From Hyphomicrobiales bacterium (lineage in GTDB: Bacteria > Pseudomonadota > Alphaproteobacteria > Rhizobiales > Rhodobiaceae): DNA of 64,000 bases. The position numbers and the translations under genes were made by a program. The notes under the pieces are model-generated. The model was given only the letters and a program-made list of their open reading frames with translations. It did no database searches and was not told where the DNA came from. Shown one piece after another: positions 27,246 through 45,594 of the stretch. The DNA lies in the NCBI GenBank assembly GCA_002869065.1, contig PKTR01000001.1, forward strand, positions 549,118 through 613,117. Direction: 5' to 3'. How positions within the stretch are numbered: the stretch's first letter is position 1; every line of letters starts with the position of its first letter.

Positions 27246-27275
27246 GGGCGCGGACTTCGGTTTGCGCCCTTTTTA
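27246..27275 (+). terminator. Rho-independent terminator after eno
   Basis: Stem GGGCGC/GCGCCC extended inward by four pairs (two of them G-T) around a TTCG tetraloop and followed by five T. Its T-tract overlaps the last codons of the convergent sensor kinase gene. Confidence 0.85.
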
Positions 27276-28646
27276 TGTGCTCTCGCCAGCGGACGGGAAG
27301 GTGAGGGTGATGCGTGCGCCACCCTCCGGCCCGTTGTCGAAGTGAAGTTCGACGCCGTAATTCGCCGCGATGTCGCGAACGATCGCAAGGCCGAGGCCGG
27401 ACCCCGGAGCGCTCTCGTCGAACCGTTTGCCGCGTTCCCCAAGCCGGTTATGCGCCGCATCGGGAAAGCCCGGCCCATCATCCGACACCGTCAGGCGAAT
27501 ACCATCGGACCCGCTCTCCACGCCCACCGAAACCCGGCTCGCAGCCCATTTCGTCGCGTTCTCGACGATGTTGCCGAGCATTTCGGTCAGGTCGTTGCGT
27601 TCGAGCGGGACGATCAGCCCGGCAGGGCATGTCACCTGCCATGCAAGTGCCTCGCCCTGCGGGGTTTTCTGCACCGTGCGGACAATGGCGTTGAGCGTCT
27701 CGCACAAGGGGGCGGTACCCGGCCGGCCGCGATCGCGGGACTGCAGCCGGGTGAGGGCGAGCTGATGGTCGACATGGCGCTGCATGTCCGCCGCGAGTTG
27801 CGCGAGTTCCCGGCCTTCATCCGCCTGACCCTCATCCTCAAGTCGCTGTGCATGGCCGCGCAGCACGGTGAGCGGCGTTTTCAGCCCGTGCGCGAGATCG
27901 GCCGCGCGCGCCCGCGCGTGATCCATTGCCTTGCCTTGTTCGTCGAGCAGCGTGTTGACCTCGTGCACCAGCGGCATGACCTCTTCGGGAAAGGTTCCCG
28001 AAAGCCGCGTGCTCTTGTCCCCCCGGATCGCGGCAATACCCGCACGGATCGACTGCAGCGGTCGCAGACCGAGCGTTATCTGCGCCCATACGGCCGCAAG
28101 CAGAACCAGGCCGAGAAGCAGCAGCGAGGGCACCAGGTCGGCGGCAAACTGGTTGCGCGCCTCGATCAGGGCGGATCGGTTGAGCCCGACCGCGATCCGG
28201 ATCAGGTGGGGGCCTGAGTCGGTCGGAAAGGCGATCTCCTGTTCGAGAGCGATGAGGGTGCCTCCTGCCGGATCCGGGAGAAGGTGCCGGTGGACTTGGT
28301 GCCGATCGATCACGTCGTCCGGAAAGTCGAGATCGCTGTCCCAAAGCGAACGGGAACGACGAACGACACCGCTCTTGGCGTCCGACGCGCGCCAGTAGAG
28401 CCCGCTCAGGGGGCGCTGGAAGCGTGGATCGGGAAGCAGGAGCTTGATTGCAAATGACGAGCCGTCCGGCGTCAGCACCACATTGCCGGCGATCTGGTTG
28501 ACGTAGGTCTCCAGCTCGGCATCGATGCGACGCTCGACATGACGGGAAAACAGGAAGACGAGGCCGGCACCGGCGAGCGCAAGGGCGAGGGTGATCGAAA
28601 GCAACGAAACAAGAAGCAGGCGCAGTTTAAGCGACGTGCTTCTCAT
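27273..28646 (-). CDS. PhoQ/FeuQ-like sensor histidine kinase
   Basis: Inner-membrane sensor (457 aa). One membrane helix lies at about 10-33, a periplasmic domain at about 34-170, and a second helix at about 171-193, followed by a HAMP-like linker. The phosphoacceptor H253 lies in LAHGLKTPLTVL, closely resembling PhoQ-type kinases. The N box (ENATKW), DDGPGF and GSGLGLAI loops complete the ATPase domain. It overlaps the upstream response regulator by 4 nt. The best guess is the FeuQ/PhoQ group of Rhizobiales; the signal is unknown. Confidence 0.88.
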   Translation of the reverse strand: MRSTSLKLRLLLVSLLSITLALALAGAGLVFLFSRHVERRIDAELETYVNQIAGNVVLTPDGSSFAIKLLLPDPRFQRPLSGLYWRASDAKSGVVRRSRSLWDSDLDFPDDVIDRHQVHRHLLPDPAGGTLIALEQEIAFPTDSGPHLIRIAVGLNRSALIEARNQFAADLVPSLLLLGLVLLAAVWAQITLGLRPLQSIRAGIAAIRGDKSTRLSGTFPEEVMPLVHEVNTLLDEQGKAMDHARARAADLAHGLKTPLTVLRGHAQRLEDEGQADEGRELAQLAADMQRHVDHQLALTRLQSRDRGRPGTAPLCETLNAIVRTVQKTPQGEALAWQVTCPAGLIVPLERNDLTEMLGNIVENATKWAASRVSVGVESGSDGIRLTVSDDGPGFPDAAHNRLGERGKRFDESAPGSGLGLAIVRDIAANYGVELHFDNGPEGGARITLTFPSAGEST

Positions 28647-29308
28647 GCGGTCTCCTCACCGATGTAATAGCCGAAGCCGCGTTTGGTCTTGATCAGTTCG
28701 GCGCCGATCTTGCGCCGGGTTCGCCCGACCAGAACCTCGATCGCGTTGGAATCGCGTTCATAGTCCTGCGCATAGAGGTGTTCGGTCAATTCGATTTGCG
28801 AAACCACGCGGCCTTTCTGCATCATCAGATAGGCGACGAGCTTGTATTCCTGCGGCGACAGGGAGATCGGCACGCCTTCGACGGAGACGCGCATCGTGCG
28901 CGTGTCGAGGGATACGACGCCGTCGGAAATGACCGGCGTCGCGTGCCCGGATGAGCGTCGCACGATGGCGCGCAGCCGGGCGACCAGTTCCTCCATCTGG
29001 AACGGTTTCGGCAGATAGTCGTCGGCACCGGCCTCGATGCCCTCGACGCGTTCCGCCCAGGTGCCGCGGGCCGACAGAACGAGAATAGGAAAATCTCGCC
29101 CGTTGGCCCGCCACCGTTTGAGAACGGCGAGACCGTCCATGCTCGGCAGGCCGAGATCTAGAACGACAGCGTCGTAGTCCTCGGTGTCGCCGAGGAACCA
29201 CGCTTCTTCGCCATCGCTCTCATGGGTAACGATGAAACCCTGCGCCTTCACGGCCGCGACCACATCGCGCGCGATACGCTTGTCATCTTCGACAACGAGC
29301 ACTCTCAT
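28643..29308 (-). CDS. PhoP/FeuP-like OmpR-family response regulator
   Basis: DNA-binding partner of the adjacent kinase (221 aa). The receiver domain (1-115) has acidic residues at 8-9, the phosphoacceptor D51 in VVLDLGLP and K101 in YLPKPF. The C-terminal winged helix (about 125-218) carries YKLVAYLMMQKGRVVS and the terminal GFGYYI. It overlaps the kinase downstream and the PepSY gene upstream by 4 nt each, so the three genes form one coupled operon. Confidence 0.92.
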   Translation of the reverse strand: MRVLVVEDDKRIARDVVAAVKAQGFIVTHESDGEEAWFLGDTEDYDAVVLDLGLPSMDGLAVLKRWRANGRDFPILVLSARGTWAERVEGIEAGADDYLPKPFQMEELVARLRAIVRRSSGHATPVISDGVVSLDTRTMRVSVEGVPISLSPQEYKLVAYLMMQKGRVVSQIELTEHLYAQDYERDSNAIEVLVGRTRRKIGAELIKTKRGFGYYIGEETA

Positions 29309-29679
29309 TCGTCGTCCTCGATCTTGATAATTTTTCCGGTGCGGGCATCGAGATAGATCTCGACGAGTCTCCCGCGCGGATTGATGAGTTTGATTTCGTA
29401 GACCGGAACGCCGTCGTCCTCTTCGTATTCGATCTCGGCGATCTTGCCGTCGAGGTGGTCCTTTGCGCTCGCGAGGATGGTCTGCAGCGGCAGGATGTCG
29501 CCGCGTTGGCGCGCGGCATGCGCGCGGTCGTGATCACTTTCGGCTGCTTCGTTCTCGCTCGCGAGGGCCCGCTCGAAGATGTTGCCCCCATGCGAGAGGG
29601 CGCCGGCGCCTGCGGCGAGAAGGGCGGCGACTCCAATGAACAGAAAACGGTTTTTCAGGCTGATTTGCATGAAGCTCAT
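29305..29679 (-). CDS. PepSY-domain protein, first gene of the two-component operon
   Basis: A small exported protein (124 aa). An N-terminal hydrophobic segment (about 8-28) is a signal peptide or anchor. A histidine- and acid-rich stretch follows, then a PepSY domain (about 55-122) ending VYEIKLI-(NPRG)-RLVEIYLDARTGKI. It overlaps the response-regulator gene by 4 nt. Small periplasmic proteins encoded with such kinases often tune them; FeuN does this for FeuQ in Sinorhizobium, but homology to FeuN is not shown here. The start at 29679 or 29670 is uncertain. Confidence 0.8.
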   Translation of the reverse strand: MSFMQISLKNRFLFIGVAALLAAGAGALSHGGNIFERALASENEAAESDHDRAHAARQRGDILPLQTILASAKDHLDGKIAEIEYEEDDGVPVYEIKLINPRGRLVEIYLDARTGKIIKIEDDE

Positions 29680-29752
29680 TCTGCGCGAAACAAACTGACA
29701 GATGCCTGACAATAGCACTCAGGATGCCGTCAGCCGCACCTCGCTATGGTCC

Positions 29753-29816
29753 GTGTCATCAACCCACCCGGGATGCCCGGGCAAACATGACACCCGCCCG
29801 GAGCTGCCGGGCAAAC
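29753..29816. repeat. Tandem 30-bp repeats and nested inverted repeats in divergent PepSY promoter
   Basis: Two units start at 29767 and 29797. Each has a CCCGG...CCGGG inverted repeat followed by GGGCAAAC. The first unit (CCCGGG-ATG-CCCGGG) is also enclosed by a wider inverted repeat, GTGTCAT at 29753-29759 and ATGACAC at 29787-29793. The block ends 16 nt before the PepSY start codon at 29833. It could be a tandem regulator site or a leader RNA structure. Confidence 0.6.
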
Positions 29817-29832
29817 GACAAAGGACCACTTA

Positions 29833-30117
29833 ATGCGCAAGATCGTTCTCGCCACCGTCGCCGCCTTCACCGTCATCGGCTCCACTGCCGCGTTCGCGTC
29901 GGGTGATGAAGCCAAGTGCACCTCTGCTCCCCGCGACCAGTGGATGAGCGAAGAAGCCGTCAAGGCGAAGGTTATGGAGATGGGTTACGAAGTCCGCCGC
30001 GTGAAGGTCGAGGACGGCTGCTATGAGGCCTATGCCATCGACAAGAACGGCGCGAAGGCCGAACTCTACGTCGATCCGATGACCGGCAACGTCGTCAAGT
30101 CGAAGATGGACGACTGA
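29833..30117 (+). CDS. Small periplasmic PepSY-domain protein
   Basis: A 94-aa exported protein. A signal peptide with a cleavage site near AAFASG (about residue 23) precedes a compact PepSY-type domain (YEVRRVKVEDGCYEAYAID, then AELYVDPMTGNVV). Two cysteines in the mature part (CTSAP and DGCYEA) may form a disulfide. It shares one base with the following cytochrome gene (TGATG), so the two are coupled. Divergent from the PepSY/two-component operon, and probably under its control. Confidence 0.88.
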   Translation: MRKIVLATVAAFTVIGSTAAFASGDEAKCTSAPRDQWMSEEAVKAKVMEMGYEVRRVKVEDGCYEAYAIDKNGAKAELYVDPMTGNVVKSKMDD

Positions 30118-30674
30118 TGTCTGCCGCCGAACTCGATGCCGGCCGCACGACGCGGCCGGCAACGGTGCGGGTCTGGGATCCCCTGGTCCGCATCTTTCAC
30201 TGGGGCCTGGTTGCGACATTCGCCATCGCCTACATCACCGGCGATGAATGGCAGAAGGTTCATGAACCTGCCGGCTACGTCGTGATGGGTCTGATCGCGT
30301 TCCGGATCCTTTGGGGCTTCGTGGGAACACGCCACGCCCGGTTTTCAAAATTCGTCTATCGCCCGTCGACCGTGCTCGGCTTCATGAAAGACACAATTGG
30401 TCTCAGGGCAAAACGCTACATCGGTCACAATCCGGCCGGCGGTGCGATGGTGATCGCGTTGCTGATCGCCCTTGCCGCGATCTCCGCCACCGGCTTCATG
30501 ATGACGACCGACGCTTACTGGGGTGTCGAATGGGTCGAAGAGGCCCACGAAGCCGCCGTCAACATCACGCTCGGCCTCGTCGTACTCCACGTGATCGGCG
30601 TTGTCGTCGCCAGTATCGAACATGGCGAGAATCTTGCTCGGGCAATGGTCACCGGCCGCAAACGCCCTGAGTGA
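30117..30674 (+). CDS. Cytochrome b561 family membrane protein
   Basis: Inner-membrane diheme cytochrome b (185 aa) of the bacterial cytochrome b561/Ni-hydrogenase type. Four membrane helices are visible (about 28-45, 55-72, 108-128 and 148-166). Candidate heme ligands are H28 (RIFHWGL), H49 (KVHEPAG), and histidines in EEAHEAA and VLHVIG. Expected role: electron transfer between quinol and a periplasmic partner. Its coupling to a PepSY protein suggests the two act together. A terminator follows. Confidence 0.87.
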   Translation: MSAAELDAGRTTRPATVRVWDPLVRIFHWGLVATFAIAYITGDEWQKVHEPAGYVVMGLIAFRILWGFVGTRHARFSKFVYRPSTVLGFMKDTIGLRAKRYIGHNPAGGAMVIALLIALAAISATGFMMTTDAYWGVEWVEEAHEAAVNITLGLVVLHVIGVVVASIEHGENLARAMVTGRKRPE

Positions 30675-30697
30675 CTTTCATGGCGAGAAAAAAAGCG

Positions 30698-30730
30698 AAG
30701 GGGCGGGGACCTGTCTGGTTCCCGCCCCTT
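30698..30730. terminator. Bidirectional terminator between cytochrome b561 and BCCT genes
   Basis: A 14-bp GC-rich stem with arms AAGGGGCGGGGACC and GGTTCCCGCCCCTT (one G-T pair) and loop TGTCT. On the minus strand it is followed by a T-rich run, so it serves the convergent BCCT gene best. Confidence 0.8.
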
Positions 30731-30753
30731 GCGTTTATCAAAGTGCCGTGCCG

Positions 30754-32391
30754 CTACGACCGCGGCTCGCTCGCCAGCCCTTTCAGGATCGCAAAGCAGG
30801 CGAGCAGCAGCACGATCGTGAATGGAAAGCCGGTCGAAACGGCCATCGCTTGTAACGCCGCAAGTCCGCCGCCAAGCAGCAGCGCAATCGCGACGAGGCC
30901 TTCGAAAACCGCCCAGAAGATACGCTGCGGCAGCGGTGCATCGACCTTGCCGCCGGCGGTGATCGTGTCGATGACCAGCGAACCGGAGTCCGACGATGTG
31001 ACGAAGAACACGATCACAAGCGCGATACCGATGAACGAGGTGATCGACGTCAGCGGAAGAACGGCCAGCATCTTGAAGAGCTTCAGTTCCAGCGCCGCGT
31101 CCTGCACTCCCGTGTAGCCGTCGGCGATGATCTGGTGGATCGCGGTGCCGCCAAACGCTGTCATCCACAGCACCGACACCAGCGAGGGAATCAGCAGCAC
31201 GCAGACGATGAATTCGCGAACTGTCCGGCCACGGCTGACGCGCGCGATGAACATACCCACGAACGGCGACCAGGAGATCCACCAGGCCCAGTAGAACGAC
31301 GTCCAGCCCTGCGAGAAATTGGCGTCCTCGCGTCCAAACGGGTTCGACAGTCCCGGAAGATACTCGGCATAGGCGACCAGATTGTTGAAGAAGCCCGTCA
31401 TGATAGCGAGCGTCGGCCCGACCGCGATGACGAACAGGAGCAGAAGCGCCGCCAGCACCATGTTGATTTCCGACAGGCGTTTCACGCCGGCATCGAGACC
31501 GGCGACGACCGAGGTCAGCGCAATGCCGGTAATGCCGAGGATCAGGAACACCTTGGTGGCGTCGGTGATTGGTACCCCGAACAGGAAATTCAGGCCCGCC
31601 GTTGCCTGCTCGGCGCCGAAACCGAGCGAGGTTGCGAGACCGAACAGGGTCGCAAAGACCGCCAGCGTATCGATGATGTGTCCGGTCCAGCCCCAGATCC
31701 GTTCACCGAAGATCGGGTAGAAGACGGAGCGGATGGTTAGCGGCAGACCCTTGTTGTAGGAGAACAGCGCGAGCGCCAGTGCGACGATGGCGTAGATTGC
31801 CCACGGGTGCAGGCCCCAGTGGAAGATGGTGGCGGCCATGCCGAGACGCTCGGCTTCCGCGGAGTTGCCGGCCGCTGCTCCAAGCGGCGCCCAGTCGGTC
31901 CGCGCGCCATTGTCGCCGACTGAAATTCCGCCCATCGACGACGAATAGTGCGAGATCGGTTCCGACACGCCGTAGAACATCAGCCCGATGTCCATGCCGG
32001 CGGCAAACAGCATCGCGAACCAGCCGGAGTAGGAGTAATCGGGCGTTGCGTCCTTGCCGCCGATGCGCACCTTGCCGTAGGGCGAGACGATCAGGAACAG
32101 GCACAGAAGAACGAAGATGTTCGCCGCGCCGAGGAAGAACCAGTCGAAGGTCGACGTCAGCCATCCGCGCATAGTGCCGAACAGCGGACCGACGCTGTCC
32201 TGAAATGCCAGCGTGAGAAAGACGAAGGCGACGATGGTCAAACCCGAGATGGCGAACACCGGGTTGTGGATGTCGAGGCCGAAGGGCCCCACGCTTACGG
32301 AAATATTGTCCTGGCCGATCTCGTAATCGGTATCGATGACGTTGGCCGGTCCCTCGGGTTCCGGAATGCCGGACGGTGACGTATCACTCAT
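30754..32391 (-). CDS. BCCT family betaine/choline/carnitine transporter
   Basis: Twelve-helix secondary transporter (545 aa) for compatible solutes or quaternary amines. The family signature is present around FYWAWWISWSPFVGMFIAR and SRGRTVREF. The glycine stretch of helix 3, GMGIG in BetP, reads G132-M-D134-I-G136 here, so an aspartate replaces the middle glycine. The cytoplasmic N-terminus is about 45 residues and the C-terminal tail is very short, unlike osmosensing BetP. AAGGGGG lies just before the ATG at 32391. It is co-oriented with uspA 90 nt upstream. Confidence 0.93.
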   Translation of the reverse strand: MSDTSPSGIPEPEGPANVIDTDYEIGQDNISVSVGPFGLDIHNPVFAISGLTIVAFVFLTLAFQDSVGPLFGTMRGWLTSTFDWFFLGAANIFVLLCLFLIVSPYGKVRIGGKDATPDYSYSGWFAMLFAAGMDIGLMFYGVSEPISHYSSSMGGISVGDNGARTDWAPLGAAAGNSAEAERLGMAATIFHWGLHPWAIYAIVALALALFSYNKGLPLTIRSVFYPIFGERIWGWTGHIIDTLAVFATLFGLATSLGFGAEQATAGLNFLFGVPITDATKVFLILGITGIALTSVVAGLDAGVKRLSEINMVLAALLLLFVIAVGPTLAIMTGFFNNLVAYAEYLPGLSNPFGREDANFSQGWTSFYWAWWISWSPFVGMFIARVSRGRTVREFIVCVLLIPSLVSVLWMTAFGGTAIHQIIADGYTGVQDAALELKLFKMLAVLPLTSITSFIGIALVIVFFVTSSDSGSLVIDTITAGGKVDAPLPQRIFWAVFEGLVAIALLLGGGLAALQAMAVSTGFPFTIVLLLACFAILKGLASEPRS

Positions 32392-44829: not shown

Positions 44830-45594
44830 ATGAGCCAGAAATCCGGAGAACGCGGCAGCAGCGGACGCGGCAGCAGTGGACGGGGCATCAAGCAGCGCCT
44901 CAAGACCGCCAAGAAGCGCACGCCGTCGTCGCAACGCTGGCTCGAGCGACAGCTGAACGATCCCTACGTCGCGCGGGCAAAGGCCGAAGGATACCGGTCG
45001 CGCGCCGCCTACAAGCTGCTCGAGATCGACGACAAGCACAATCTGTTGAAGAAGGGCATGCGGGTGGTCGACCTCGGCGCCGCGCCCGGCGGCTGGTCGC
45101 AGGTCTCCGTCGCCCGCACCGGTTCGACGGACGACAACATTCTGGTCGTCGGCATCGACTATCTCGGCATGGAGCCGATCGCCGGGGTGACGCTGCTGGA
45201 AAAGGATTTCCTCGACGACGATGCACCCGACATGCTGCGCGACGCACTTGGTGGTCACAACGCCGATATCGTGCTCTCGGACATGGCAGCACCGACGACG
45301 GGCCACAAGAAGACCGACCACCTTCGCATCATGCATTTATGCGAAGTGGCGCTTGAATTCGCCCGCGAGGTGCTCGTGCCTGGCGGGGCTTTCCTTGCCA
45401 AGGTTTTTCAGGGCGGGACCGAGCACACGCTGCTTGCCGACCTGAAACGGGATTTCACCGCCGTCTTCCACGTCAAGCCGGCCGCGAGCCGCGCCGATTC
45501 CGCCGAGCTCTATGTGCTGGCCAAGGGGTTCCGTGGGCGGCGCGACGACGACCGCGGCGACCGCGACGAAATGAATATCAGCGAAGACGAATGA
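44830..45594 (+). CDS. rlmE: 23S rRNA (uridine-2'-O)-methyltransferase RlmE (FtsJ)
   Basis: Methylates U2552 of 23S rRNA in the late 50S subunit. The 254-aa product has the SAM-binding [13 protein letters not shown] and a K-D-K-E tetrad: K in RAAYKLLE, D in VLSDMAAP, K in FLAKVFQG, E in [10 protein letters not shown]. The N-terminus has a [10 protein letters not shown] repeat and basic residues, and the C-terminus is Arg/Asp rich. AGGAGAGG precedes the ATG. Confidence 0.95.

Follow-up and report, generated by a model that had tools for sequence, protein, structure and literature searches.

The region between two divergently oriented PepSY-family genes in the window (the whole 64-kb stretch of DNA analysed here) carries nested direct and inverted repeats at 29753-29816. 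The question raised by this locus is what these repeats do: whether they are DNA sites for the OmpR-type regulator encoded nearby or a switch in the leader of a messenger RNA, the two readings put forward in the initial annotation, or something else. The available portions of the literature on PepSY, regulator, cytochrome b561, and Rhizobiales promoters, including PMC11870441, PMC3997798, PMC8963506, and PMC9426467, held nothing on this leader.

Methods

Relatives of the locus were gathered as 18 loci from genome contigs and, from the window's order, 90 pieces; matches were found in 139 of 397 genomes of that order and the best listed matches were used first, giving 106 distinct regions upstream of PepSY_2 genes with the window's own included. 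The regions were scored for the pattern CTGA-N7-CTGA followed by TCAG-N7-TCA; 44 had more than two mismatches and were left out, and six of the 62 box-bearing leaders were shorter than 33 nt and were dropped, so that 56 were tested. Eight of the 56 were left unclassified by regulator, there being no regulator hit in the piece examined. The hairpin tests were devised after the leaders had been viewed, with control stretches handled identically and kinship reduced to one value per genus, under the genus labels of the search of the window's order.

Results

Genes around the repeats

The repeats are flanked by the following genes:

27273-28646, minus strand: sensor histidine kinase gene (Pfam PF02518 and PF00512)
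28643-29308, minus strand: OmpR-family response regulator gene (Pfam PF00072 and PF00486)
29305-29679, minus strand: divergent PepSY protein gene (Pfam PF03413 on the 29305-29718 open reading frame; putative start)
29833-30117, plus strand: PepSY_2 protein gene, 94 aa (Pfam PF13670, E 6e-30)
30117-30674, plus strand: cytochrome b561-type membrane protein gene (Pfam PF01292, E 1e-25)

For the divergent PepSY gene, a start at 29679 or 29670 is likelier than the 29718 given in the list of open reading frames. The cytochrome b561-type gene probably belongs to the same operon as the PepSY_2 gene, and 49 of the 56 loci examined have a relative of it encoded on the same strand. Past the cytochrome gene, a terminator scan of 30600-30800 listed nothing; a G+C-rich inverted repeat that was seen by eye at 30702-30735, between this gene and a convergent BCCT transporter gene, is unlisted by that scan. 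When the response regulator was compared with NCBIfam, none of the best 25 models was matched at its cut-off; its best matches were PmrA and QseB, well under their cut-offs, with PmrA on top at 200.7 of the 330 bits.

A predicted regulator box and promoter upstream of the repeats

The following features were assigned to the stretch between the divergent genes:

29695-29733, no strand: predicted response-regulator box, CTGAC-N6-CTGAC (29695-29710), 8 bp, TCAG-N7-TCAG (29719-29733), shared with relatives
29745-29750, plus strand: putative -10 hexamer TATGGT, about 11 nt past the box, as in many relatives
29753-29793, no strand: outer inverted repeat, GTGTCAT (29753-29759) and ATGACAC (29787-29793), 7 bp
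29757-29759, plus strand: putative transcription start, A29758 in a CATC motif; (C)ATC lies 5-7 nt past the putative -10 in many relatives
29757-29786, plus strand: leader unit 1 with hairpin H1 (29767-29781), ending in GGGCAAAC; from the repeat and alignment, with H1 at p=0.03 in the +1-anchored test
29786-29816, plus strand: leader unit 2 with hairpin H2 (29796-29812), ending in GGGCAAAC; from the repeat and alignment
29820-29825, plus strand: Shine-Dalgarno-like AAAGGA of the PepSY_2 gene, read from the sequence

The box occurred with at most two mismatches in 62 of the 106 regions upstream of PepSY_2 genes, compared with 5 of 1060 mononucleotide shuffles. Its direct half sites are 11 bp apart, conserved, and upstream of the putative -10, and the box ends about 20 bp upstream of the repeat stretch reported in the initial annotation, where the box itself went unmentioned. 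The site of the regulator would be better placed at 29695-29733 than at those repeats because the box is common to relatives and the repeat letters are not. The inverted halves of the box could serve both divergent promoters. A sigma-70 promoter scan, the consensus of which is that of E. coli, returned nothing, so the -10 and the start were placed by position. Since this -10 puts the start near 29758, the repeats would fall within the 5' leader of the PepSY_2 mRNA.

Box type goes largely with the regulator. Among the 36 loci with the 8-bp spacer, 30 combine a divergent PepSY gene with a regulator that shares 57-75% identity with the window's, and six lack a regulator hit in the piece examined. 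The 20 loci with other spacers comprise 14 whose regulator is a different one (36-43% identical) and which gave no hit to a divergent PepSY gene, four with the orthologous regulator (L099, L118, L130, and L132), and two with none. The loci with the different regulator (L062, L104, L121, L017, L018, L021, and others) form a second class of PepSY_2 locus that bears the same half sites at a longer spacing. A further group (L046, L051, L056, L060, L061, L103, L108, L112, and L117) has, just past an ACAGG direct repeat in the PepSY_2 leader, a long G+C hairpin that is followed in most members by a T run, an attenuator-like layout before the gene as judged by eye.

Elsewhere, a further CTGAC-N6-CTGAC was seen at L143 (G000 C4, 274094-274109), one of five in the genome (a control pattern gave three). 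It lies upstream of a membrane protein gene that by eye resembles a methyltransferase, with TATGAG at the same spacing and no leader hairpin by eye, and it is a possible second target of the regulator.

Repeats and folds in the leader

The two 30-bp units with a common end and G+C-rich arms that had first been described are borne out: aligned with one-base gaps, 29757-29786 and 29786-29816 score 17, a value that none of 2000 shuffled pairs reached. Within them, a 25-nt direct repeat (29762-29786 and 29792-29816) is identical at 19 of 25 positions at a spacing of 30. H1 reads CCCGGG-ATG-CCCGGG from 29767, and H2 reads GCCCGG-AGCTG-CCGGGC from 29796. The units also lie, as had been stated, within 80 nt of the PepSY start, the start codon being at 29833. 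By the looser test of 19/25 matches at a spacing of 15-60, three repeats were found in the 64-kb window (20 block shuffles gave a mean of 0.6 and a maximum of 3), and the direct repeat is thus rare and non-unique within the window; the two further close repeats, at 44842 and 89, have 19/25 matches at spacings of 15 and 60.

The wider GTGTCAT/ATGACAC inverted repeat likewise exists where it had been placed, but when the 99-nt region was shuffled 1000 times, 111 shuffles contained one or more 7-bp inverted repeats of that reach and 27 contained as many as were observed. By eye it is absent from relative L035, and it is probably fortuitous. A GGTCC (29748)/GGACC (29823) pair, which went unmentioned in the initial annotation, encloses all of the repeats. 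The GTGTCAT and GGTCC arms both begin upstream of the putative transcription start. Were transcription in fact to begin upstream of 29748, the mRNA would include the outer arms, and the GGTCC/GGACC pair would mask part of the Shine-Dalgarno-like site.

For 29748-29840, a stretch of 93 nt, the fold energy is -39.3 kcal/mol (z -3.94, equalled by 0 of 200 shuffles), and the minus strand gives a z of -2.17. The putative leader, 29758-29832, folds at -26.7 kcal/mol (z -2.59, 12 of 1000 shuffles), an absolute energy that is ordinary for this G+C-rich window, in which 411 of 1279 75-nt stretches fold at least as well. In the leader alone, one composite hairpin at -26.7 kcal/mol is marginally better than two hairpins at -24.4 kcal/mol.

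Two ATG frames were seen in the leader, one at 29773-29790 (ATGCCCGGGCAAACATGA, five codons and a stop) and a second that begins at 29787 and enters PepSY_2 in a different frame; no Shine-Dalgarno-like site was seen before either.

A hairpin kept in position across relatives

A hairpin is enriched at the same leader position in relatives with the orthologous regulator. When leaders were anchored on the putative +1, a hairpin was present in 36 of 36 leaders whose box has the 8-bp spacer (p<0.05 in 26, Fisher 2e-22), compared with 9 of 20 for other spacers (p<0.05 in 2, Fisher 0.51). Six of the 36 had p>0.1 (L119, L137, L053, L101, L042, and L148). When each genus contributed a single value and the window was excluded, p<0.05 was reached in 14 of 23 genera (Fisher 7e-13). 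Anchoring on the start codon, with the window included, gave p<0.05 against shuffles in 17 of 34 leaders beside the orthologous regulator (Fisher 1.6e-15) and a Fisher value of 2.4e-8 over 21 genera. In the same loci, only 1 of 34 control stretches upstream of the box reached p<0.05. No leader hairpin signal was found in the second class of loci, where none of 14 leaders beside the other regulator (36-43% identical) reached p<0.05 and the control stretches were slightly enriched (3/14, Fisher 0.05). The whole-leader minimum free energy gave a weaker signal than the hairpin tests: over 49 leaders the mean z-score was -1.02, compared with -0.12 for controls, with p<0.05 in 20% versus 6%.

What is kept is the position. 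The letters of the hairpin arms differ between genera, and loop length and stem length vary as well. In 13 hand-picked alignable leaders, two of which (L114 and L124) have three box mismatches and stand outside the 62, a 6-bp stem was paired in 82% of cells, more than in any of 500 shuffles and compared with 20-58% when the stem was slid; two pairs had changed on both sides, in three cells, numbers that 91 and 37 of the 500 shuffles reached, respectively. A symmetric count of mispairs in 40 leaders gave 14 internal G-U and 12 A-C, which gives no sign of selection on plus-strand RNA as opposed to DNA. The window's H1 starts about 9 nt past the putative start, a greater distance than most of the 28 measured leaders show; in that measurement the window and L035 were anchored on TGTC in place of CATC.

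The doublet

The doubling of the hairpin is specific to the window's species among those compared. A 19/25 direct repeat within 110 nt of the start codon was found in 1 of the 106 upstream regions, the window's, and in none of 1060 shuffles; at 18/25 it was found in three (L124 and L145 being added) and in 5 of 1060 shuffles, and looser settings also bring up L152 and L153. Among the 34 leaders next to the orthologous regulator, the window's was likewise the only one with two separate hairpins that each reach 5 bp or more. The Rhodobiaceae MAG locus L035 (the same record as L016; PepSY_2 54% identical) has at this position a single hairpin with other letters, and the same-genus genomes L138 and L144 each have the box and a single hairpin, also with other letters. 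The simplest origin of the doublet is that unit 2 is probably a tandem duplicate of unit 1, as their alignment suggests. Compared across orthologous intergenic regions, as the initial annotation had suggested, the upstream box and the position of the hairpin were thus kept, and the repeat letters and the doublet were not.

Other candidates

An Rfam search of 29650-29950 gave no matches up to E 5. The repeats are not a dispersed REP-like element, as the 121-nt region matches only itself. The motif CCSGGCAAAC has 39 hits, 37 of them outside the region, and its reversed control has 10; of the 35 stretches around these hits, most fall within long open frames, one, L093, is just before an ATG, and by eye the whole unit is present in none. 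A plus-strand intrinsic terminator or attenuator of PepSY_2 was rejected, since the scan of 29600-29900 found none on that strand; the only candidate was on the minus strand at 29817-29791 (mean of 0.4 in shuffles).

Discussion

On balance, the repeats are probably the 5' leader of the PepSY_2-cytochrome b561 mRNA, in which a stabilising 5'-terminal hairpin, duplicated in this species, lies downstream of a regulator box. We infer the sequence of events as follows, from activation by the regulator through transcription start and stabilisation to the duplication. The OmpR-family regulator would bind the four-part box at 29695-29733 and activate the promoter with the putative -10 at 29745-29750, and transcription would start near 29758. 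The transcript would then open, within about 10 nt, with the G+C hairpin H1, followed by the duplicated H2 and an open Shine-Dalgarno-like site. The 5'-terminal stem-loop may impede a nuclease that depends on the 5' end, such as RNase E, and so slow the decay of the mRNA, on the analogy of ompA, and the duplication may be a redundant or strengthened version of the hairpin.

The 5' stem-loops of E. coli ompA and papA and of B. subtilis aprE lengthen the life of their mRNAs. The leader described here would resemble them in having a hairpin at or near the putative 5' end of the mRNA, upstream of an open Shine-Dalgarno-like site, and differs in the doubling of the hairpin and in the roughly 9 nt left unpaired ahead of H1. 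By this analogy, stabilisation of the mRNA would be the likeliest role of the 5' hairpin. The PmrA box is a CTTAA repeat, and the predicted box is like PmrA/QseB-type boxes in that its CTGA repeats are spaced by 11 bp and lie about 11 nt before the putative -10, and unlike them in its letters, CTGAC/TCAG, and in having two pairs that face each other. As far as the available parts of the sources go, two further systems offer partial parallels. The Caulobacter regulator UzcR is also an alphaproteobacterial two-component regulator of envelope genes, but its site, CATTAC-N6-TTAA (PMC8963506), does not match the box, and it was rejected as a known relative because of this difference. CruR, which precedes copper-regulated PepSY_TM operons in Bordetella (PMC9426467), is likewise a case of post-transcriptional control upstream of a gene set with a PepSY-family member; CruR is a conserved protein that contains a CXXC motif, in contrast to which the leaders here have no more than short ATG frames, seen in 16 of 34 and absent from L035, and a conserved CruR-like upstream frame was rejected.

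Several other explanations of the repeats were weighed. It is highly improbable that they serve the adjacent OmpR-type regulator as tandem operators: direct repetition at a spacing of 30 bp next to a response-regulator operon speaks for such sites, but relatives in which that regulator is 57-75% identical have other letters there while sharing the upstream box, and the repeats sit downstream of the putative -10. The proposal of an OmpR-type regulator therefore holds for the intergenic region, where the box is shared, and fails for 29757-29816, where neither the letters nor the doublet are. A DNA-level element near +1, be it a palindromic operator of another regulator or an element of promoter escape or pausing whose letters drift, is unlikely; the position shortly past the putative start and the mispairs without strand preference would suit it, whereas the variation in loop length, in stem length, and in letters is unlike a fixed operator. 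That a neutral micro-duplication and leftover palindromes have no role at all is very doubtful in view of the hairpin enrichment across genera with negative controls, even though the outer inverted repeat is within chance and the doublet is unique among the 106 upstream regions; a neutral origin for the duplication itself is plausible.

The remaining alternatives concern the RNA. The near-equal folds of the leader leave room for refolding, such that a ligand, a protein, or a small RNA could switch the transcript between two hairpins and one composite hairpin, but this is decidedly unlikely: there is no Rfam match, no common loop letters were seen, the Shine-Dalgarno-like site is in neither hairpin, and the composite fold needs two hairpins, which 1 of the 34 leaders has. 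Of the RNA leader switch first proposed, the leader is thus supported, with a hairpin enriched in place beside the orthologous regulator, and the switch is not, given the missing Rfam match, the AAAGGA at 29820 outside both hairpins, and a GTGTCAT arm that starts before the putative transcript. A broader version, in which the PepSY two-component unit of the window's order carries a 5'-leader hairpin with free letters and a kept position as an RNA part of its circuit, for decay control or sensing, and in which this hairpin has been duplicated in the window's species into a doublet that can refold into one composite stem and make the leader graded or switchable, we regard as unlikely.

Read as a stabilising hairpin behind a regulator box, the leader is a further case of known kinds; its novelty is modest, and the hairpin kept in position with its letters free is the interesting part. 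Two layers of control are thereby separated at the PepSY/cytochrome b561 locus of many genera, a testable box and a position-kept hairpin. If the stabilising role is true, the locus would offer dozens of natural stem variants with which to test what protects the 5' end of bacterial mRNA.
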